64,000 bases of DNA, taken from assembly GCA_037482015.1 (NCBI GenBank), contig JBBFKT010000005.1, forward strand, positions 1-64,000, given 5' to 3'. Numbering within the stretch: position 1 is the first letter of the stretch; the number at the start of each line of letters is the position of its first letter. Source of the DNA: Thermodesulforhabdaceae bacterium. GTDB lineage: Bacteria > Desulfobacterota > Syntrophobacteria > Syntrophobacterales > Thermodesulforhabdaceae. Both the position numbers and the translations under genes were made by a program. Under the pieces are notes generated by a model. The model was not told where the DNA came from. It made no database searches and was given only the letters and a program-made list of their open reading frames with translations. Below, piece by piece: positions 34,895 through 49,532 of the stretch.

Positions 34895-37800
34895 TTGATG
34901 ATTCACCTTCGAGGAGTCACTCAACATAATCTCGCCAGCATAGATCTAGACATCCCATTGGGAAAAATGATTGGGATTTGTGGGGTAAGCGGATCAGGCA
35001 AATCCACTCTTGCCTTCCATGTTATCCATGCAGAAGGGCAGCGCCGATACGTGGAGACCTTTTCGCCTTACGTGCGCCAGTTTTTGGAAAGACTTACTGC
35101 TCCCTCTGCTCAATCCATAGAAAACATTCCTCCCACAATAGCCCTTGAATCGGGAACAACGGTAAAAAATGCCAGATCAACCGTTGGCACATTGACCGAC
35201 ATTAATGACTATTTAAAGCTCCTTTATTCACTCGACATGTCCCTTGAAGATTCGTCCAGCTCGCCGGAAGCTATTAGGTCTCTTGTTGAAGCTGTCTGTC
35301 CTAATTGCAATATTCCCATTCGCTCAGCCACGGTGGAATCAATTCTTTCTTGGCTCAAGGTCGAAAAGATCGGTGAACGTTTTCTTATTCTTGCCCCCCT
35401 TAATCTTGATAAATATGGTTTTAACCCTCGAGAACTTATCTACAGAGGTTTTGTAAGGATTTACACCGGCGGTCGCCAAATTCACCTAGAAGAAGATCCT
35501 ATAACCGAAAATATTTCACCCCCGGTGTTCGTTGTGGTTGATCGAGTGGCTTATAACGGTCAGGAAGATGAAACCCGTATTGCTGAATCTCTCAGAGTTG
35601 CCATGCAGGTAGGGGAAGGCATTGTGGAGCTGGCTTTCCCGAAGAATGATGAATCTGGATCTTACTTCCATTACAGCTTTAACGCTAAAAAAACCTGTCC
35701 CCAATGTGGCTTTGTTGTGCCAGTTCGACGACCTGAACTCTTTTCCTTCAACAGTCCTTTGGGAGCTTGTCCTGAGTGTAAAGGGTTCGGGAGAATTATT
35801 GGCGTAAATCCTGATCTTGTCGTGCCGGATAAGACTCTTAGCCTGTCCGATGGAGCCATTAAACCCTGGCCACCTGGAACCTATGAATATCGGGATCTCA
35901 TGAAATTTTGCTGGCGAGAAAGGATTCCGACGGACGTGCCATTTGAAGAACTTTCTCAGGATGCACGAGATAAAATCTTTAATGGCACAGCAGATTTTTA
36001 CGGCGTTAAAGGTTTTTTTGAGTGGCTGGAAGAAAAACGTTATAAGGTGCATGTAAGGGTCTTTCTATCTCGTTATAGAGCTTTTATTACATGTCCGGTG
36101 TGTGGTGGAACACGCTACCGTAAAGAGACCGGCATATTTAGATTGTTAGGAACACCCATTTATGAACTGCAGTCCTGGAGCATAACAAAGTGTCTCGATT
36201 TTTTTAAGGCTCACCGAGAAATTCTTTGTTCTTCTCAGTCTTCGTCGGTTTTATCAAACGAGATCATTCGACGACTCAAACTTCTCGATTCTCTTCGACT
36301 TGGCTACTTGTCACTAGATCGTTCATCTAGAACACTTTCTGGCGGAGAGGTTCAGAGAGTCCATCTTGTGCGGGTGCTGGGAAGTGGCTTGAGCAACGTG
36401 CTTTACATCATGGATGAACCAAGCACGGGCTTACATCCCCGGGATCAGGAACATCTTGTGAAAGCTCTAAGACGCTTTGTCGAACAGGGCAATACTGTGC
36501 TCGTTGTGGATCATGATCCTGATATTTTAAGCGCCTGTGATGAACTCATAGAACTGGGTCCCGGTGGAGGAAAAAAGGGAGGGCGAATTATTGCGCGAGG
36601 AACTCCTCCCGAACTTGCTTCAAACCCTGAAAGCATTACAGGAAGATACCTTTTAGGCTGTTCAGCAATAGGAGAATTGTTTTCGGTTCAGTCCGAGCGA
36701 GATAGAATGGGGGCATTACCGTGTGTTCCTGTGCCAGACGACCAGGCTCGAATGCTTATTGTAAAAGATACACGGGTTAATAACTTGAAAAACATCTCAG
36801 TTCGCTTTCCGTTGGGACGTCTTATTGGTGTTAGCGGTGTGTCTGGAGCCGGAAAGACAACCTTAGTTCGCACTGTGCTTTATTCGAGCTGGCTTAAACA
36901 TAAGAGATTGCCCGTAGAAGATGAAATCCCGCCCGGAAGCTGGAAAATGGAGGGACTTAAGTGGATCGATAATATGATGTTTGTGGATCATCGCCCTGTT
37001 GCTCGCACCCCCAGAGCAAACCTCATGTCCTACGCCGGTATTATGTCCATAGTAAGAAACCTTCTTGCAAATACTGATGAAGCCCGAGAGAAAGGTTATG
37101 GACCCGGTTTCTTTTCTTTTAACCAACCTGGGGGGCGCTGTGAAGTCTGTCAGGGTGAAGGATACGAGCATCACGAGATGCAGTTCCTTGCCGATGTCTA
37201 TTCTGAATGTCCTGCCTGCCACGGAAAGCGATTCAAAAAGGAAGCTCTGGAAATTCGCTACAAGGGCTGGAATATAGCCGATTTTCTTGATGCAACAGCT
37301 GAAGATGTGGCATCTCATTTCTCAGATCACCCAACGATTATGCAATTTCTAAAGCCCTTTTTCCTGCTTCAACTTCATCATCTAAAACTCGGACAGCCTC
37401 TTGCAACCCTTTCTGCTGGTGAATCGCAGAGACTTAAGCTTGTGCCGTTTGTTAGAGAAATGCTGGCACTGGAAAAAGCTGGAACTCGTAGTTCTGGAAA
37501 GAGCTGCCTTATTCTTGACGAACCCTCAAGAGGACTTCACCCGCTGGATCTCGAAAATCTGTCATCAGTTCTTCGGATGCTCGTTGATCGAGGACATACG
37601 GTTATAATGGTGGAACACAACCTACAGCTCCTTTCTCTCTGTGATTGGATCATTGATCTGGGTCCAGGCTCGGGTGATGAAGGTGGCAAACTGGTTTACG
37701 AAGGTTCGGTAGCTGGATTGATGGAATGTGCCGAGAGCGCTACCGGTTTAGCCATGAAAAACTTCATTGAACGTAGATTGCGGGGGCAAATAGACCAATC

Positions 37801-40453
37801 TTTCAGGTTTGCTAGCGTTGTTTCCAATGTTAAACCAAGTCTTGACGGTTTTACCAAGTCCTCTGGTAGTGAAAAAAACAAATTGTCAAGAGAAACAAAG
37901 GTTCGTGATGTAATCCTTAAAGGTGTCCGTCATCATAGCCTGAACATTGAAGAGTTGAAGCTACCGCTTGGTGCTATGATAGCTATCACAGGTGTAAGTG
38001 GCTCCGGGAAGTCCACTCTCGCCTTCGATGTGTTATTTAGCGAAGGGCAGAGGCGATATCTGGAATGTCTATCCAGTTATGTGAGAAACTATTTTCCTCT
38101 TCCTGAACGCCCCACCATTGATCTGTTAGAAGGACTCCCGCCAACGGTTGCGGTTGAACAAAGGTTAAGCCGTTTGGGTAACAAGTCCACAGTGGGAACA
38201 GTTACAGAAATTTACCATTTTCTGAGAGTCCTTTTTGCCAAAGCAGGAGAGCAGCATTGCCCCGGCTGTGGTCATCCAGTGGAAGCTCTAACCGAAGATG
38301 AACTGATTGCCAGGATAGAACACGAACTCAGTAGCCCCAATCCGCCTCTGGTGCTTTCACCGGTGGTTTACAGGCGCAAAGGAGTATATCGAGATCTGGC
38401 TAATAAGCTGGATCGCATGGGTTTTCAAGAACTTCGGGTTGACGGAGTGTGGATGAAGCCGTCTGAACTGGCTTCTTCTCTACTTTCTCGATTTACGGAT
38501 CATACGATTGAAGGTAAAGTTCCGCTATCGATTCCCTTCGGGGATGAGGCTATTGAATGGCTCCGTAAGGCTCTTAAACTAAGCGATGGTCTTTTTATGT
38601 TGGTTTACGATGATGGCAAAGAAGAAATGCTGAGCCTGAGGTTTTTCTGTCACCGCTGTCAGCGTAGCTTTATGCCTCTTGAACCGAGACTTTTTTCCTT
38701 TAACAGCCCTTATGGGGCTTGTCTGCGGTGCGATGGGACTGGAGGGGACGAAAACGGCAGTGTGTGTCCAGCTTGTGGAGGGAGTCGCTTAAACGAGCAG
38801 GCACGGGCGGTTAAATGGGCTGGGAGAGCAATACATGAATGGACAGCTCTTAGCGTTGATGAGTCTCTCCAGCTCTGGGAAAATATCGAGCAAAAACTTA
38901 ACTCTGTAGAATTTTCCAGATGGCGTGAGGTGTTGGAAGCTGTCAAAACCGAGATTATCAGCAGGTTGAGATTTCTTATGGATGTGGGACTTGGCTATCT
39001 AACTCTTGACCGATCTGGCGATACTTTGTCTGGAGGCGAAGTTCAGCGGATCAGGCTTGCGGCACACCTTGGCTCCAACCTCTGCGGAGTCTTTTACGTT
39101 CTGGATGAACCAACCATCGGACTTCATCCTTCCGACAACCATAAATTGCTCCAGTGTCTGAAGAAATTGCGTGATCGTGGCAATACGGTGTTGGTTGTAG
39201 AACATGATCAAGAAACTCTTAGAGCCGCAGACGTGGTGGTTGAACTGGGACCTGGCGCAGGACGGAATGGCGGACGGGTTGTTGCTAAGGGTAGATTTGA
39301 AGATCTTTTGGTGCAGGATGGAACTCTTACCGGAAGATCCTTTGGCAATGAGTTGTGTTTTGAAGAACTTGAAACTAGAAGACGACCGGTGAACTCTTCT
39401 CATAAGAACTGGCTTACCGTAAGATCTATTTCCATAAGGAATTTCAACGGCGTGGACGTATCAATACCTTTAGGAACGCTTACCTGCATTACCGGGGTTT
39501 CCGGCTCAGGAAAAAGCACTCTGCTTTTCGATGTTGTAAAAGTTGGACTTGAACGGGCGCTTTCTGATAAAGGTGACAGGGTCAGGAGTGGACACCTTCC
39601 TTTTTCTTATATTGAAGGTTACGAAGGTATTTCGCGAGTTCAGGAAGTGGATCATCAGCCGATAGGCCGAACATCCCGCTCCATCCCTGCAACATATATT
39701 GGTATATGGGATGAAATCCGTAAGATTTTTGCATCTCTTCCGGCAGCTAAAGCTCTCGGTTTTACTCCCGCTCACTTTTCCTTTAACATCGATGGTGGTA
39801 GATGTGAAATGTGCAAAGGGCAGGGAGTGGTTGTGGAAAAAATGGGCTTTTTACCGGATGTTACCAGAACATGCCCTGCCTGTGGCGGGACTAGATTCAA
39901 ATCTGATGTGCTTTCAGTTCGCCATCGAGGTTGCTCCATTGCTGATGTTCTTGCTATGACTTTCGATGAAGCAGGAGAACATTTTAAAGCTTACGGGCTT
40001 ATTGCTAAACCTGTAGAAATAGTCAGAAAGCTGGGACTTGGGTATCTAACTCTCGGACAGCCGAGTTCAACCCTTTCGGGTGGAGAAGCTCAGCGTATAA
40101 AACTTGTTAAGGAGTTGCAGAAGCAGAGCCGCCCGACTGTTTTTATGCTGGATGAACCAACCACGGGACTTCATAGGTCGGATATTGTGAAGTTAGTGGC
40201 TGTGCTGAGGGATTTGGTCGATCGAGGGCATACAGTGTTGGTTATTGAGCACAATATGGATTTCGTTAGACTAAGCGATTACATTATTGATATTGGTCCT
40301 GAGGGAGGCATACATGGAGGAAATATTGTAGCCTGTGGAACTCCAGAAGAAATGAAGGCTTTTGTAAATGTTTCCAGGACGGCAAGGGCTCTCTGGGGTT
40401 TGGGCGAAAGTGATGTAAGAAGAAGTGTGACGGCGATGCATTCCTGTGCATAA
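34895..40453 (+). CDS. uvrA: Double-length excinuclease ABC subunit UvrA (two UvrA halves fused)
   Basis: UvrA detects bulky DNA lesions and loads UvrB. This 1852-residue protein is two UvrA units in one chain: Walker A motifs lie near residues 30, 647, 1032 and 1533 (three GVSGSGKST, one GVSGAGKTT), and signature motifs near 482, 838, 1377 and 1725. Zinc-module Cys pairs (CPQCG/CPECKG, CEVCQG/CPACHG, CHRCQ/CPACGG, CEMCKG/CPACGG) occur in each half. The second signature reads LSAGESQR instead of LSGGE. Normal UvrA is about 940 residues and works as a dimer; double-length UvrA is known from Chlamydiae. The gene is intact, with no frame disruption. Confidence 0.93.
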   Translation: MMIHLRGVTQHNLASIDLDIPLGKMIGICGVSGSGKSTLAFHVIHAEGQRRYVETFSPYVRQFLERLTAPSAQSIENIPPTIALESGTTVKNARSTVGTLTDINDYLKLLYSLDMSLEDSSSSPEAIRSLVEAVCPNCNIPIRSATVESILSWLKVEKIGERFLILAPLNLDKYGFNPRELIYRGFVRIYTGGRQIHLEEDPITENISPPVFVVVDRVAYNGQEDETRIAESLRVAMQVGEGIVELAFPKNDESGSYFHYSFNAKKTCPQCGFVVPVRRPELFSFNSPLGACPECKGFGRIIGVNPDLVVPDKTLSLSDGAIKPWPPGTYEYRDLMKFCWRERIPTDVPFEELSQDARDKIFNGTADFYGVKGFFEWLEEKRYKVHVRVFLSRYRAFITCPVCGGTRYRKETGIFRLLGTPIYELQSWSITKCLDFFKAHREILCSSQSSSVLSNEIIRRLKLLDSLRLGYLSLDRSSRTLSGGEVQRVHLVRVLGSGLSNVLYIMDEPSTGLHPRDQEHLVKALRRFVEQGNTVLVVDHDPDILSACDELIELGPGGGKKGGRIIARGTPPELASNPESITGRYLLGCSAIGELFSVQSERDRMGALPCVPVPDDQARMLIVKDTRVNNLKNISVRFPLGRLIGVSGVSGAGKTTLVRTVLYSSWLKHKRLPVEDEIPPGSWKMEGLKWIDNMMFVDHRPVARTPRANLMSYAGIMSIVRNLLANTDEAREKGYGPGFFSFNQPGGRCEVCQGEGYEHHEMQFLADVYSECPACHGKRFKKEALEIRYKGWNIADFLDATAEDVASHFSDHPTIMQFLKPFFLLQLHHLKLGQPLATLSAGESQRLKLVPFVREMLALEKAGTRSSGKSCLILDEPSRGLHPLDLENLSSVLRMLVDRGHTVIMVEHNLQLLSLCDWIIDLGPGSGDEGGKLVYEGSVAGLMECAESATGLAMKNFIERRLRGQIDQSFRFASVVSNVKPSLDGFTKSSGSEKNKLSRETKVRDVILKGVRHHSLNIEELKLPLGAMIAITGVSGSGKSTLAFDVLFSEGQRRYLECLSSYVRNYFPLPERPTIDLLEGLPPTVAVEQRLSRLGNKSTVGTVTEIYHFLRVLFAKAGEQHCPGCGHPVEALTEDELIARIEHELSSPNPPLVLSPVVYRRKGVYRDLANKLDRMGFQELRVDGVWMKPSELASSLLSRFTDHTIEGKVPLSIPFGDEAIEWLRKALKLSDGLFMLVYDDGKEEMLSLRFFCHRCQRSFMPLEPRLFSFNSPYGACLRCDGTGGDENGSVCPACGGSRLNEQARAVKWAGRAIHEWTALSVDESLQLWENIEQKLNSVEFSRWREVLEAVKTEIISRLRFLMDVGLGYLTLDRSGDTLSGGEVQRIRLAAHLGSNLCGVFYVLDEPTIGLHPSDNHKLLQCLKKLRDRGNTVLVVEHDQETLRAADVVVELGPGAGRNGGRVVAKGRFEDLLVQDGTLTGRSFGNELCFEELETRRRPVNSSHKNWLTVRSISIRNFNGVDVSIPLGTLTCITGVSGSGKSTLLFDVVKVGLERALSDKGDRVRSGHLPFSYIEGYEGISRVQEVDHQPIGRTSRSIPATYIGIWDEIRKIFASLPAAKALGFTPAHFSFNIDGGRCEMCKGQGVVVEKMGFLPDVTRTCPACGGTRFKSDVLSVRHRGCSIADVLAMTFDEAGEHFKAYGLIAKPVEIVRKLGLGYLTLGQPSSTLSGGEAQRIKLVKELQKQSRPTVFMLDEPTTGLHRSDIVKLVAVLRDLVDRGHTVLVIEHNMDFVRLSDYIIDIGPEGGIHGGNIVACGTPEEMKAFVNVSRTARALWGLGESDVRRSVTAMHSCA

Positions 40454-43105: not shown

Positions 43106-44383
43106 ATGAAAAGCGTTTATGACGCCATGTGGGAACGTTTGAATCTTGACCTTGACGCTCACGCCGCCCTCTTGGAAGTGCTTGGAAAATTCTACGGCGA
43201 TATTTATCTGAGTCAGCAGGGACGTCTTAAAGGAATGGAATATATCGATTTTGTGATTTCCGAAATTCACGGTCTTCGCATCAAGGAACTTCAGGAAGCA
43301 AAGGCTCAGGGGCGAAAAGTTGTCGGCACTTTTTGTGTCTTTGTTCCGGAGGAAATTATCTGGGCGGCAGATGCTATTGCTGTAGGACTTTGCGCTGGAG
43401 CCGAAGCTGGTAAAGAACGAGCAGAAGAAATTCTTCCGAGAAATCTCTGTTCGCTTATAAAATCTTTCGTGGGTTTTAAACTAGCCAGGCTTTGCCCCTT
43501 TTTCGAATCCTGTGATCTTGTAGTTGGTGAAACCACATGCGACGGCAAAAAGAAGACATATGAAATCTTCGGAGAGCATGTGCCGATGTATGTTATGGAA
43601 ATTCCCCAGATGAAGCATGAGGCTGATAAAGAGTTGTGGCGGAAGGAAATACTCAGGTTCAAGGAAAAAATTGAATCACTTACGGGTAATACCGTTACTT
43701 TTGAAAAACTCAAAAAAGCCGTGAAAATGCTAAATGATAGAAGACGTGTTTTGCAACGGCTTAACGACCTTCGCCGTCATCATCCCGCTCCAATATCTGG
43801 TCGTGATGCTCTATTGGTAAACCAGATAAGCTTTTATGATGACCCCGAACGGTTTACTCAGCAAATAAACAAGCTTTGCGATGAACTTGAAAATCGCATT
43901 CAGAAAGGCAATGGAGCGGTTCCTGAGAATGCCGTTCGAGTAATGATTTCAGGTTGCCCCATGGCTATACCTAACTGGAAGCTTCCTTATGTGGTGGAAT
44001 CTTCCGGGGCTGTGGTGGTTTTTGAAGAGTCCTGCGTGGGAAGCCGAAACACCCGAGACCTTGTTGACGAATCAGCAGAGACAATGGATGAACTGATCGA
44101 CGCTCTTGTGGATCGATATTCTCGTATAGACTGCGCCTGTTTTACTCCCAATGAGGAACGGATTGCTCATATCATTGATGCTGCGAGAAAATGGAATGTC
44201 AAAGGAGTCATCCACTATCATCTTAATTTCTGCCAGCCTTACGAAATTGAGAGCTTCCGGGTTGAAAAAGCTCTGGCTCGGGAAGGCATACCCTTCATAA
44301 GCATCGGGACGGATTACAGTATGGAAGATCTTGAACAACTGAAAACCAGAGTTCAGGCATTCATTGAGATGATAAGTGCCTAG
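43106..44383 (+). CDS. Double-cubane-cluster-type reductase (2-hydroxyacyl-CoA dehydratase D-like)
   Basis: This 425-residue protein belongs to the HgdB/HgdC-associated dehydratase superfamily. Cysteines are at 77, 96, 115, 130, 136 and 145 (RLCPFFESCD, GETTCDGKKK), with others at 284 (ISGCPMAIPNWKL), 310 (ESCVG) and 376 (NFCQP). A single dehydratase-type subunit with TTCDGKKK, next to one activase and without a second subunit gene, is the arrangement of double-cubane [8Fe-9S] proteins and of E. coli yjiM-yjiL. These carry out low-potential reduction of small molecules in vitro; the natural substrate is unknown. A true 2-hydroxyacyl-CoA dehydratase is less likely because its partner subunit is missing. 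Confidence 0.8.
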   Translation: MKSVYDAMWERLNLDLDAHAALLEVLGKFYGDIYLSQQGRLKGMEYIDFVISEIHGLRIKELQEAKAQGRKVVGTFCVFVPEEIIWAADAIAVGLCAGAEAGKERAEEILPRNLCSLIKSFVGFKLARLCPFFESCDLVVGETTCDGKKKTYEIFGEHVPMYVMEIPQMKHEADKELWRKEILRFKEKIESLTGNTVTFEKLKKAVKMLNDRRRVLQRLNDLRRHHPAPISGRDALLVNQISFYDDPERFTQQINKLCDELENRIQKGNGAVPENAVRVMISGCPMAIPNWKLPYVVESSGAVVVFEESCVGSRNTRDLVDESAETMDELIDALVDRYSRIDCACFTPNEERIAHIIDAARKWNVKGVIHYHLNFCQPYEIESFRVEKALAREGIPFISIGTDYSMEDLEQLKTRVQAFIEMISA

Positions 44384-44396
44384 GGGTTTATAGAAG

Positions 44397-45170
44397 ATGT
44401 TTTGGGGAATTGATATCGGGTCGCGCTCTATTGAGCTTGTGGGAATAGATGAAAATGGGAGAGTGAAAGTTACAAAACTTATGCCGACTGCTTATAACCC
44501 AATTGGGCAGATGGAACTGATACTTAAAGATGTGCCTGAAAGCGACCCGATAGTGTCCACAGGCTATGGAAGAAATCTTTTTATGGAACACTTTCCCTGG
44601 GAAGGAAAAAGAAAATCTGTCACGGAAATACAGGCTTACGCAAAGGGAGCGCTGGCTCTATACCCTGAAGTTAGAATGATTCTAGACATTGGCGGACAGG
44701 ATACCAAAGCGATTGCTCTGGATGATCGAGGACAGATTGTTAAATTCGAAATGAACGATCGTTGTGCGGCTGGGACAGGAAAATTTCTGGAATTCATGGC
44801 AGCGGCTCTTCATGTTCCGCTGGAGGAATTTGGGGAGTTTGCCATGAAAGCCACGAAGAAACTGAAAGTAGCAAGTTTATGCACGGTTTTTGCCGAGTCT
44901 GAAGCCACTTCTCTTATGGCAAGAGGGGAGAAGCCAGAGGACATAGCCAGAGCACTTCATGAATCTATTGTTTCAAGAACGGTTGCTATGGTAAAACGGG
45001 TGGGCTTTAAGAAACCTCTTCTATTTGGAGGCGGAGTAGCTCGAAATATATGTGTGGTTAATCTTATCACTGAAGCCTTGAATTGTGAGCCAATTATTCC
45101 TGATAATCCCGAAGCTGTTGGCGCTCTAGGGGCTGCATTGATTGCAAGGGAAAATTATATTGCGCTCTGA
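44397..45170 (+). CDS. ATP-dependent activase/reductase of the dehydratase/double-cubane family
   Basis: The 257-residue protein is an ASKHA-fold ATPase: phosphate loop GIDIGSRSIELVGID, second loop ILDIGGQDTKAIAL, and adenosine-binding FGGGVARN. Cys123 (NDRCAAGTGKFLEF) and Cys162 (ASLCTVFAESEA) should bridge one [4Fe-4S] cluster across a homodimer. It is expected to hydrolyse ATP to push an electron into the adjacent reductase. The gap is 13 bp, so the two genes form an operon. Length is typical. Confidence 0.9.
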   Translation: MFWGIDIGSRSIELVGIDENGRVKVTKLMPTAYNPIGQMELILKDVPESDPIVSTGYGRNLFMEHFPWEGKRKSVTEIQAYAKGALALYPEVRMILDIGGQDTKAIALDDRGQIVKFEMNDRCAAGTGKFLEFMAAALHVPLEEFGEFAMKATKKLKVASLCTVFAESEATSLMARGEKPEDIARALHESIVSRTVAMVKRVGFKKPLLFGGGVARNICVVNLITEALNCEPIIPDNPEAVGALGAALIARENYIAL

Positions 45171-45359: not shown

Positions 45360-45381
45360 GGCTCACATGTTTATGTGGGCC
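45360..45381 (+). other. Strong hairpin just upstream of the intron-like segment
   Basis: GGCTCACAT and ATGTGGGCC form a 9-bp stem (one G-T pair) with a GTTT loop. It lacks a T-tract. Some bacterial group II introns insert next to stem-loops, so its position 25 bp before the intron-like start at 45406 may be meaningful. Confidence 0.5.
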
Positions 45382-45563
45382 ACGCATACGTCGCCCCTAC
45401 ATTCAGTGCGCCCAGCATGTGCGTGCTCCTGGAGGTGAAAGTCCTCCCGTGAGTTGATCACAGCGAGCGAAGGGAAGCACAACTGCACGAGGGTGACCGA
45501 GTGTGGGGAGGAAGCGTCGAACGAAACTGCGAGCCGATGGACAAGAACCGGACCCCTCCCCAG

Positions 45564-45585
45564 CCCTCCCCGTTGACGGGGAGGG
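45564..45585. repeat. GC-rich palindrome nested in the intron-like segment
   Basis: CCCTCCCCG at 45564-45572 and CGGGGAGGG at 45577-45585 form a perfect 9-bp stem with a TTGA loop, within a longer GC-rich block (45550-45608). Such GGGGAGGG-type palindromes occur as dispersed repeats in many genomes; here it interrupts what should be domain I. Confidence 0.55.
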
Positions 45586-45667
45586 GGTGCGGAGCGGGGC
45601 GAGCGGGCTAGAGTCCGAGAAGCTCTCGTGATCAAGGTGAAGTGGCGTAAATTCGGCGGTTGTGCAT

Positions 45668-45701
45668 CATGTAGGGGCGACACATGCGTCGCCCCTACAT
45701 G
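45668..45701. repeat. Perfect 14-bp GTAGGGGCGAC palindrome nested in the intron-like segment
   Basis: CATGTAGGGGCGAC at 45668-45681 and GTCGCCCCTACATG at 45688-45701 flank ACATGC. It is the clearest copy of the GTAGGGGCG palindrome family in this window. Confidence 0.7.
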
Positions 45702-45995
45702 CACCTGAAAAGGGTGACGGTGGTGAGTCGGAGCGAGAAGTCAGCAGAGGCCGTAGTAGCTGCTTGCTCAACTTTTCGAACCGCCCGGTGCGGACCCGCA
45801 TGCCGGGTGGTGTGGAATGGGATCGGTCAAACTGACCGCCCCTATCCCAATTCTGTCAAATCACATGTTGAGTGGTTTCTTAGCTACTCACGTCTGGAAA
45901 GGTCCCCAAAGTTGAGATCCATCCATGCGTTTTCTGCGGTTTATATTACTTGACCATCCTATAAGGGAAGTTTTCGAACACCCTTTCGGAATCTA

Positions 45996-47112: not shown

Positions 47113-48197
47113 CAGTTTTTACTCCCCGGATTCTGGTTTATTTCAGCGGCGATTTCTCTAATAGCTTTAAGATGGTCTTCGTATGTGGTGGAAAATCTGT
47201 GACCTCCTTGACGATCGCTTACAAAGTAAAGATAAGTAACATCAGCAGGGTAGAGCACAGCCTTTATTGAAGCAATACCCGGATTACAAATAGGACCTGG
47301 GGGAAATCCCTTGATCAAATAAGTATTGTAAGGTGAAGGGCGTGCTAAGTGGCTTTTCAATACAGGTCCTTTGAAATTTTCCAGATCATAAACCGCTGTT
47401 GGATCGCTTTGAAGCGGCATACCTATTTTTAGTCTGTTAAAAAAAACAGCGGCAATAACAGCACGTTCTTCATCCTTCACGGCTTCCTTTTCAACCATGG
47501 AGGCAAGAGTTACGATCTGATGAAGAGAAAGATTCATGTCCTTTGCCCGCTGAAGCCATTCAGGTTTGAATCGCTTTTTGAATTCTCTCGCCATTCTCTT
47601 AAGAGCCGTATCGGCTGTGTCTTTTTTTGTAAAATCATAAGTTGCGGGAAACAGATAGCCTTCCAGGCTTGGGGCATCATGAAATCCAAGAGACTCAACA
47701 AAATTTCTATCTTTGGCTAGTTTGATTACGTCATCTTTTTTTGCGATACCGGATCGATCAAGCGCTTCAGCCACATCAAAAATTGTTGCTCCCTCAACCA
47801 CCGTAACAAAGTGGCGAACGACGTCTCCTCGAACAATTTTTTTCCACACATCGATGTGATTCATAGGAAAGTGAAAAGCATATTCACCACTTTTCAGCAG
47901 GTTGTGCCATTTCATGAAAAATACTAGAGCAAGGGGTCGGTATGGATCCGATTCCACCCCTTTTTCTACAAGAAGGTTAACGACATCAAATACTCCTGTT
48001 CCCTGGGGAATATTAATGTATAAGCAATTTTCGGGCTGGCATTCTTTCTTATTTTTTTGAATAAAATTGCCACCTTTGATGGGTATAGGTTCATGAGCCC
48101 AGAAAAAGATGGGAATTGTTACGAGATTAACCACCACGGGAAGAGTTGTTAGTAAAACGACCACCAACCAGATGATTCCCCGAAGTATGACCTTCAT
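47112..48197 (-). CDS. mltG: Endolytic murein transglycosylase MltG (YceG)
   Basis: MltG cleaves nascent peptidoglycan and helps terminate glycan strands. The protein has one N-terminal membrane helix (about residues 4-30), a LysM-like region and the catalytic domain with LASMVEKEAVKDEERAVIAA (catalytic Glu), LQSDPTAVYDL, ARPSPYNTYLIKGFPPGPIC and PADVTYLYFVSDRQGGHRFS. The 361-residue length is typical. It overlaps the DUF523/DUF1722 gene by 4 bp. Confidence 0.94.
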   Translation of the reverse strand: MKVILRGIIWLVVVLLTTLPVVVNLVTIPIFFWAHEPIPIKGGNFIQKNKKECQPENCLYINIPQGTGVFDVVNLLVEKGVESDPYRPLALVFFMKWHNLLKSGEYAFHFPMNHIDVWKKIVRGDVVRHFVTVVEGATIFDVAEALDRSGIAKKDDVIKLAKDRNFVESLGFHDAPSLEGYLFPATYDFTKKDTADTALKRMAREFKKRFKPEWLQRAKDMNLSLHQIVTLASMVEKEAVKDEERAVIAAVFFNRLKIGMPLQSDPTAVYDLENFKGPVLKSHLARPSPYNTYLIKGFPPGPICNPGIASIKAVLYPADVTYLYFVSDRQGGHRFSTTYEDHLKAIREIAAEINQNPGSKN

Positions 48198-49186
48198 ACG
48201 TGGTTCCTTAGTCGAAGCTCAATAGGATGAGGGTTCAAGTAATACTGGCTTTCTAGATAAGAAGGTTTGTACTTTCTCACGTAATGATTTATCAGCGTAA
48301 TTGGAACGATTAGAGGGACGTGGCCTGCTCGGTAGGCTTCTATAATTTCTATCATTTCCTGTTTTTCATCGGGTGTTAGGTTTTTCTTAAAGAAGCCCAT
48401 ACAATGGTAAAGAACATTTGAATGTTTTCTAGGAGTTGCCAGGAGTTTCATTCCTTTCCAGAGTAAATCTTCATATTCTTTGAGGACGGTTTTTCCGAAG
48501 GATCGGTCTGAGGATGAAGCTACTATGCGTCCCAGTTTACGGAGTATTTCCGGGCTATGAGCCATTAGAATGAGCTTATGACGTTCGTGAAATTCGATAA
48601 GGTTTTTTAAGCTGCGCCCCGAATTTGATACTTTTTGCCATCGGTGAAACACAAAGATTCGTTCTATAAAATTTTCTCGCAGCTTGGGATCGTTAAGCCT
48701 TCCTTCATCTTCCACGGGAATGTAGGGAAAGCAATCCATAAACATTCTGGCAAAAATACCGGATCCCTGCCCAACAACGGCTCCTGACTTATTGTAAATC
48801 TTCACTCTTTCAATACCACAACTTGGAGAGCGGCTTTTGAATATGAAACCGCAAAGGTTTTTTCCTTCGAGTTCAATAAGCTTACCTCGAGCCCATTCGA
48901 CCATACGATTGGTAAAATCCTTTCGGGATTTATGAGGAACCAGTAGCGGCAGAGGTGAATTTTCTTCAAGCTTCATGGATTCTCGCGGCACTCCCATCCC
49001 GCATTCCACTTCGGGACATGCCGGCACATATTCCACAAATGCCCCAAGCATGTCCACAACGAAGGGATCACGTTGATGCGATCCATCATAACGAACCTTG
49101 TGCCCTAACAAGCAGGCACTAACGCCCAGTCTTATTTTTTCTTCTTCAACGGTTTTTGTTTCTGCCTTTAGATCAAGCTTCGCCAT
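48194..49186 (-). CDS. DUF523 and DUF1722 domain protein (YbgA-like)
   Basis: The N-terminal DUF523 part has cysteine motifs GVSACLLGHKVRYDG, CPEVECGMGVPRESM and SRSPSCGIERV; the C-terminal DUF1722 part (about residues 200-320) has RHKLILMAHSPEILRKLGRI and YRAGHVPLIVPITLINHYV. Function is unknown; the clustered Cys residues may bind metal. An in-frame start at 49237 would overlap the upstream gene by 44 bp, whereas the ATG at 49186 follows GAGGAAAC and begins just past that gene's stop, so it is preferred (about 330 residues). Confidence 0.88.
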   Translation of the reverse strand: MAKLDLKAETKTVEEEKIRLGVSACLLGHKVRYDGSHQRDPFVVDMLGAFVEYVPACPEVECGMGVPRESMKLEENSPLPLLVPHKSRKDFTNRMVEWARGKLIELEGKNLCGFIFKSRSPSCGIERVKIYNKSGAVVGQGSGIFARMFMDCFPYIPVEDEGRLNDPKLRENFIERIFVFHRWQKVSNSGRSLKNLIEFHERHKLILMAHSPEILRKLGRIVASSSDRSFGKTVLKEYEDLLWKGMKLLATPRKHSNVLYHCMGFFKKNLTPDEKQEMIEIIEAYRAGHVPLIVPITLINHYVRKYKPSYLESQYYLNPHPIELRLRNHV

Positions 49187-49193
49187 GGTTTCC

Positions 49194-49532
49194 TCAACTT
49201 CTTTCCGGCACCGTTGGTATAAGAAGTTTGTAATCACCTTCGTCTATTAAGTCATATTCTCTTCCGCCTACGCTGAAGTGATTTTCGTATCCGAAAGGCA
49301 CATGTAGATCTTCTGTTACTGACATAGCTTCAAGAAGCCATCCGATCACGTGAGCATAATCTTCAAGTCTAGTAAGAAAATCGCCAGGGCGAATTTTTAT
49401 CTCCTTTACATGAAAAAGATCCTTCAATCCTTTGGTAACAAAGGTTCCCATTTCTTCATCCCAGTTGACCTCCACTACCTGGGTGGGATCTTTGCTGTTC
49501 TGGATTCTTAAAATAATATTAGAGTTTTGCAT
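49194..49532 (-). CDS. Small protein of unknown function
   Basis: A 112-residue acidic, apparently soluble protein with no signal peptide or membrane helix. Visible features are a strand-rich start (IILRIQNSKDPTQVVEVNWD), a central GDFLTRLEDYAHVIGWLLEA helix and a C-terminal GGREYDLIDEGDYKLLIP. I do not recognise the family. It is placed between gpmI and the DUF523/DUF1722 gene with short gaps on the same strand, so it is probably part of that transcript. It has a good AAGGAG-like site before its ATG. Confidence 0.7.
   Translation of the reverse strand: MQNSNIILRIQNSKDPTQVVEVNWDEEMGTFVTKGLKDLFHVKEIKIRPGDFLTRLEDYAHVIGWLLEAMSVTEDLHVPFGYENHFSVGGREYDLIDEGDYKLLIPTVPERS

Follow-up and report, generated by a model that had tools for sequence, protein, structure and literature searches.

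The closest described relatives of the system considered here are the double-cubane cluster protein (DCCP) and DCCP reductase (DCCP-R) of structures 6eno, 7yyl, and 7yzm, which we take to be from Carboxydothermus hydrogenoformans. The biological function of DCCP is stated to be unknown in PMC11971306. We have analyzed a DCCP gene and the activase gene that follows it in a stretch of 64,000 nucleotides (the window) from a Thermodesulforhabdaceae bacterium of the phylum Desulfobacterota (GenBank assembly GCA_037482015.1, contig JBBFKT010000005.1, positions 1 to 64,000, forward strand). Genes for DCCP were found close to genes for selenium metabolism in other genomes of the phylum, and we consider it probable, though by no means assured, that the pair has a selenium role. 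The two genes are as follows:

43106 to 44383, + strand: gene for DCCP (425 aa, ATG start, GGAGAG upstream)
44397 to 45170, + strand: gene for DCCP-R, an activase and ASKHA-type ATPase (257 aa, ATG start)

A DCCP:DCCP-R pair in the window

The product of the first gene scored 499.1 bits against NF040772, the model for a "double-cubane-cluster-containing anaerobic reductase" (cut-off 350), and 422.8 bits against PF06050 (HGD-D), and the solved relatives that scored best for it were 7yyl (E 1.8e-141) and 6eno (E 3e-141). The product of the second, which starts 13 bp beyond the DCCP stop codon, scored 204.9 bits against TIGR00241, the acyl-CoA dehydratase activase model (cut-off 125.4); it resembles the DCCP-R of 7yyl (E 9.2e-48) and is also akin to the activators of 2-hydroxyacyl-CoA dehydratases. 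A profile search of the whole assembly (2.72 Mb in 32 contigs, 95.45% complete, with the pair on contig C5) returned the window DCCP as the only match to PF06050 and no second HGD-D subunit, so that no dehydratase partner was seen. These results bear out the original prediction, made from the sequence of the window, of a stand-alone reductase subunit paired with one activase; the TTCDGKKK motif on which it drew is indeed present, at residues 143-150. Of 38 further genomes from its order, family, or genus, 31 had an orthologue of the DCCP at 58-82% identity, and hence the pair is not there by chance.

The window pair shares with 6eno, 7yyl, and 7yzm a full-length fold, six putative cluster cysteines, an N-terminal extension, and the family of its activase. 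An AlphaFold model of the window DCCP (predicted local distance difference test 92.4, predicted template-modeling score 0.93) matched 6eno with a template-modeling (TM) score of 0.95 and a root-mean-square deviation of 1.3 at 48% identity, as against a TM score of 0.78 for both HadC and BzdN. The difference is that 6eno lies on a separate branch of the DCCP tree. YjiM and YjiL of Escherichia coli form a similar pair: YjiM is a DCCP by its model score (531 bits), with yjiL following 9 bp later. YjiM differs from the window DCCP (39% identity) in being a short form that lacks the N-terminal extension. The window pair is thus an ordinary DCCP:DCCP-R system, and its interest is that the question of its substrate becomes testable.

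Could the window protein instead be a subunit of a 2-hydroxyacyl-CoA dehydratase or a benzoyl-CoA reductase whose partner is encoded elsewhere? All belong to a common superfamily, and BzdN (chain B of 8s02, a class I benzoyl-CoA reductase) and HadC (chain B of 3o3m, a 2-hydroxyisocaproyl-CoA dehydratase) align with the window DCCP across about 350 residues. HadC moreover uses the same type of activase, and BzdN, which carries an [8Fe-9S] double cubane on six cysteines (PMC11971306), has cysteines aligned with five of the six that we assign to the cluster below and the sixth within two residues. But BzdN is 22% identical and pairs with the substrate-binding BzdO, a kind of partner that the window genome lacks, whereas HadC requires HadB and has no cysteine at positions 77 and 310. 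The window DCCP fell below the cut-offs of the HadC model (135.2 versus 700 bits) and of the BzdN/BcrC-type models (96.6 versus 453.8 and 76.7 versus 421.15 bits), its nearest structure is a DCCP, and it is the sole PF06050 protein of its assembly. In the tree (a quick IQ-TREE run without four duplicate loci and rows with a blastp score below 100), a branch with SH-aLRT support of 99 set the window DCCP and 6eno on one side and HadC, BzdN, and the like on the other; the finer placing of the reference proteins is unsure because of long branches. The nearest neighbor of the window DCCP was the protein of locus L033 (75% identity, SH-aLRT 99). Thus the protein does not cluster with the true dehydratases or reductases by tree, model, or fold, so that the outcome named as refuting the original prediction did not arise, and we regard a subunit of such an enzyme as very unlikely.

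Association of DCCP with selenium genes

YedF is the protein of the NCBIfam family "sulfurtransferase-like selenium metabolism protein." Among 80 named relatives of the window DCCP, nine had a gene for a YedF-like protein within 3.4 kb of the start of the DCCP gene. (The flanks compared were up to 10 kb for the named loci, many of them cut by contig ends, and 1.5 kb for the 29 loci from the window's order, L003-L031.) A search of 247 genomes of the phylum revealed, over cut-off, DCCP in 89 genomes (99 genes), YedF in 161, and SelD in 220. At least 22 of the 99 DCCP genes, in at least 20 of the 89 genomes and at least 12 families, lay within 5 kb of YedF, against a chance expectation of about 0.36 genes (for one YedF per 3.2 Mb genome, randomly placed, contig ends ignored). 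At least eight DCCP genes, in at least seven of the 89 genomes, lay within 5 kb of SelD. These counts are lower bounds, as they rest on 150 matches each, from 146 of the 161 genomes with YedF and 144 of the 220 with SelD. As a control, among the 51 listed HGD-D matches that fell below the DCCP cut-off, a set that includes DCCP fragments, one was near YedF (a partial DCCP, in genome G200) and none was near SelD.

The association extends to co-occurrence. YedF was over cut-off in 85 of the 89 genomes with DCCP as compared with 76 of the 158 others (Fisher p 5e-16), and the association held within families (Cochran-Mantel-Haenszel odds ratio 14.8, p 3e-5), with none of 5000 within-family shuffles giving a value as high. 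The control gene nifH, over cut-off in 52 genomes, showed a raw association with DCCP (p 0.001) and none of significance within families (p 0.18), and it was within 5 kb of none of the 99 DCCP genes. The term "nitrogenase-like" of the original prediction is therefore apt as a description of the chemistry and goes no further. Outside the phylum, SelD was over cut-off in 14 of the 16 DCCP genomes searched. In Bacteroidales, DCCP was present in four and SelD in 127 of 286 genomes, and all four DCCP genomes had SelD, although two of these had been picked for having DCCP and the four are too few to weigh.

The genes recognized around linked DCCPs were those for SelD, YedF, SelB, YedE, an SclA-like pyridoxal phosphate enzyme, a PF11823 "Se/S carrier," and a kinase-like protein. 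DCCP thus recurs in such selenium islands (SelD, YedF, SelB, YedE) in at least 12 families of the phylum and in one genome of Bacteroidota. An island YedE scored 500 bits against TIGR04112 (cut-off 200). The selenocysteine-lyase-like enzyme scored 322 and 380 bits against the SclA model, below its cut-off of 525, and passed the threshold for a cysteine desulfurase family. The most complete run was that of the Bacteroidota genome (G335, locus L124), in which SelB, the SclA-like enzyme, YedF, the Se/S carrier, SelD, DCCP, and the activase are encoded in that order on one strand with no more than about 110 bp between genes. At L033 the genes for DCCP, SelD, and YedF lie in a row, with SelB on the same contig. 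There SelD-YedF occupies the expected place of the activase, and the nearest activase, 45% identical, is encoded on another contig. In genome G231 the neighbor of DCCP is ExtI, a "selenite/tellurite reduction operon porin" (168.5 bits, cut-off 150). Linked and unlinked DCCPs were interspersed on a tree, with at least 17 changes of label, 11 of them forced by well-supported branches; this quick IQ-TREE run additionally omitted two references and 21 paralogue rows, and the rows from islands had been chosen for their linkage.

Two further features of the islands may be recorded. The kinase-like protein (YjeF C-terminal/Carb_kinase) occurs in six of them (for example, L116:9446-10405 and L118:11728-12843), several of which also carry YedE or the Se/S carrier. 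There is also a second, short subfamily of DCCPs (about 36% identity, without the N-terminal extension; L038, L040, L044, L049, L118, L151, and L152), members of which stand in tandem with a long DCCP in Syntrophobacteraceae and in the selenium islands of genomes G098, G211, and G258.

The window genome has selenium genes of its own. Its SelD gene, with an in-frame TGA, is on contig C1 and separated by 92 bp from YedF (adjoining them, at L115:9468-11030, is a gene for a DUF4301 protein, 537.7 bits), and its SelB was over cut-off. As to DCCP itself being a selenoprotein, no in-frame stop codon was found in any of the 99 DCCP genes over cut-off in the phylum.

The published record offers hints in the same direction. 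DCCP has been "provisionally linked to selenium metabolism" in PMC10418091, a figure of which draws DCCP and its reductase among selenium genes in clostridial methyl-selenium clusters. In Table 1 of Lin 2015 (PMC5322559), a "2-hydroxyglutaryl-CoA dehydratase subunit" and an activase appear as STRING partners of YedE, YedF, a LysR-like protein, and DUF3343. An anaerobic iModulon of E. coli groups yjiLM with yedEF and ynj genes, and molybdenum and selenium usage were suggested for it (PMC7888660); the YgfI (DhfA) section of a table in PMC9068703 gives values of -6.9 for yjiM and -5.3 for yjiL. In the literature searched, which took in few subscription papers, we came upon neither an assay of DCCP with selenium compounds nor statistics comparable to those given here.

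Cluster ligands and a possible role in selenide supply

The window DCCP has 12 cysteines. When it was aligned with the 80 named relatives (81 sequences in all), Cys77, Cys96, Cys115, Cys130, Cys145, Cys310, Cys343, and Cys376 were invariant, whereas Cys136 (55/81), Cys258 (77/81), Cys284 (73/81), and Cys345 (65/81) varied. The cysteines of BzdN align with positions 77, 115, 145, 310, and 376, and one more falls between 343 and 345. Because they are invariant and align with the cluster cysteines of BzdN, we infer that Cys77, Cys115, Cys145, Cys310, Cys343, and Cys376 are the double-cubane ligands of the window DCCP; all six are present in 6eno. Of the candidates named earlier, 77, 115, 130, 145, 310, and 376 proved invariant and 136 and 284 did not, and the list had omitted 96 and 343. 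The codons of the putative ligands, with those of the activase, are the following:

43334 to 43336, + strand: Cys77, likely double-cubane ligand (81/81; Cys in 6eno and BzdN, Pro in HadC)
43448 to 43450, + strand: Cys115, likely ligand (81/81; Cys in DCCP, BzdN, and HadC)
43532 to 43555, + strand: TTCDGKKK motif with Cys145, likely ligand (C145, D146, G147, K148, K149, and K150 invariant; C145 81/81)
44033 to 44035, + strand: Cys310, likely double-cubane ligand (81/81; Cys in DCCP and BzdN, Ala in HadC)
44132 to 44134, + strand: Cys343, likely ligand (81/81 versus 65/81 for Cys345; the BzdN alignment is ambiguous between 343 and 345)
44231 to 44233, + strand: Cys376, likely ligand (81/81; Cys in all three references, DCCP, BzdN, and HadC)
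44763 to 44765, + strand: activase Cys123, likely ligand of the dimer-shared [4Fe-4S] cluster (Cys in 74/74 downstream activases)
44880 to 44882, + strand: activase Cys162, likely second ligand (Cys in 73/73 activases covered)

The ligand role of Cys123 and Cys162 we presume from likeness to HgdC. To our knowledge, it is not yet explained how anaerobes make selenide for SelD and keep it away from sulfide, which is abundant. The explanation toward which we lean is that DCCP:DCCP-R acts in selenium assimilation upstream of SelD by freeing selenide. The exact reaction is less certain, and seems to us plausible but somewhat doubtful. The activase dimer would hold one [4Fe-4S] cluster between its subunits, accept a low-potential electron, and hydrolyze ATP; it would then dock on the DCCP homodimer and drive electrons to the [8Fe-9S] double cubane on its six cysteines, steps for which the sequence and the solved homologues provide the model. 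By extrapolation, the double cubane could then reductively free HSe- from a carrier-bound perselenide, elemental selenium, or an alkyl selenide, and SelD could convert the selenide to selenophosphate for selenocysteine; the supply to SelD is suggested by gene context. The selenium species might, as a guess, sit at the bridging chalcogenide or close to it and leave as selenide. A more specific version, which we put forward as rather speculative, is that the pair is a dedicated ATP-driven selenide-forming reductase of anaerobes, in which selenium brought by YedF or by the Se/S carrier would bind and be reduced at the bridging chalcogenide, which has no protein ligand, and HSe- would pass to SelD.

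Several observations weigh against a place for the pair in selenium assimilation. Unlike the DCCPs of the selenium islands, the window pair sits apart from selD-yedF: no selenium gene was found beside it on C5, and most DCCP genes of the window's order have no selenium neighbor within the flanks compared. SelD itself was present in 84 of the 89 DCCP genomes and in 136 of the 158 others (Fisher p 0.055, within-family p 0.23), a lack of significance that follows from the near universality of SelD in the phylum (220/247) and makes co-occurrence with SelD a weak test. DCCP was not over cut-off in 136 of the 220 genomes with SelD, and hence selenium can be used without it. Conversely, SelD was not over cut-off in five of the 89 DCCP genomes of the phylum and in two of the 16 others, mostly draft assemblies; of these seven, five had SelB over cut-off and two (G159 and G300) did not. 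The only activities reported for DCCP, on acetylene, hydrazine, and azide (PMC11971306), are silent on selenium. Finally, the need for ATP-driven electrons is unexplained, given that thiols could reduce perselenide or elemental selenium.

This last difficulty would be eased if DCCP were instead to cleave C-Se (or C-S) bonds, as in methylselenol or dimethyl selenide, with ATP being used to reach a very low potential. Such a reaction would still be linked to selenium; it explains the need for ATP better than does elemental selenium, and it fits with the clostridial methyl-selenium clusters in which DCCP and its reductase are drawn (PMC10418091) and with TudS, a desulfidase described as related to the DCCP family and built of one domain (PMC11971306). 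No corrinoid or methyltransferase gene was recognized among the island proteins scanned, however, a scan in which not every open reading frame (ORF) was annotated, and the SelD, SelB, SclA-like enzyme, YedE, YedF, and Se/S carrier of the islands fit inorganic or selenocysteine-derived selenium. We therefore judge C-Se cleavage to be unlikely. Similarly improbable, in our estimation, is that DCCP is a general low-potential helper, which reduces or protects an enzyme or cofactor, or a detoxifier of compounds like azide, hydrazine, or acetylene, and that it owes its place near selenium genes to a need for the pair in anaerobes with selenoenzymes. The activities in vitro (PMC11971306), the drop in DCCP expression under carbon monoxide in C. 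maritimus (PMC7306483), and the two DCCP genomes with neither SelD nor SelB over cut-off are in keeping with a helper. On the other hand, the association with YedF holds within families and that with nifH does not, and the close linkage to YedF across families is matched by runs with SelD and YedF in Bacteroidota.

If the more specific version given above is right, chemistry at the bridge would set trace selenium apart from sulfide present in large excess, and a nitrogenase-like cluster would serve the assimilation of a trace element in organisms from sulfate reducers to E. coli. With the present comparison, a provisional remark in the literature becomes a testable claim with controls, namely linkage to YedF and co-occurrence within families without a nifH signal, to which the full series of selenium genes lined up with DCCP outside the phylum, in Bacteroidota, adds. 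The yjiML genes of E. coli make the selenium question testable in a laboratory strain.

Neighboring genes

The comparison of neighboring genes in relatives, which the original prediction had proposed, gave a mixed outcome: the activase is kept, the AEC carboxylate-type transporter encoded just upstream is not, and the context points to selenium. By tblastn, an activase is encoded directly downstream of DCCP, on the same strand and within 300 bp, in 73 of the 80 named loci; in L101 the distance is 301 bp, and in L060 it is 6 kb. L033, L071, L076, L087, and L105 have no activase in the stretch of the locus and have activases elsewhere in the genome (best identities 45%, 44%, 51%, 40%, and 39%, respectively). 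ORFs of 628-737 aa in four relatives were considered as DCCP-activase fusions and rejected, as three were upstream extensions of the ORF and one was a separate second HGD-D protein.

The AEC gene had been offered as a clue to the substrate, and one could suppose that the transporter takes up the substrate of DCCP, which would then be a carboxylate-handling reductase. Indeed, the AEC gene ends 138 bp upstream of DCCP on the same strand, and the sister species L003 (69% identity) has the same order. But L003 is the only one of the 29 order relatives in which AEC and CheZ adjoin DCCP, and genes for the CheZ-like protein, AEC, the NTP transferase, MltG, and TudS-DUF1722 were absent from the vicinity of DCCP in all 80 named loci, so that the clue is a local one. 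Because AEC starts 11 bp after the CheZ-like gene, it more likely belongs with that gene. We consider a carboxylate substrate brought in by the transporter to be exceedingly improbable.

A scan for promoters and terminators gave no more than did shuffled sequence. Copies of a GC-rich palindromic repeat (45377 to 45703) separate the activase gene from the one that follows, and the ORF called over them (45363 to 45704) is probably spurious. Farther downstream, on the minus strand, is a gene for a 2-thiouracil desulfurase (TudS/DUF523) fused to DUF1722 (48194 to 49237, 347 aa). Upstream, on the plus strand, is a gene for an UvrA-like protein of 1852 aa (34895 to 40453), which by eye appears to consist of two UvrA proteins in tandem.

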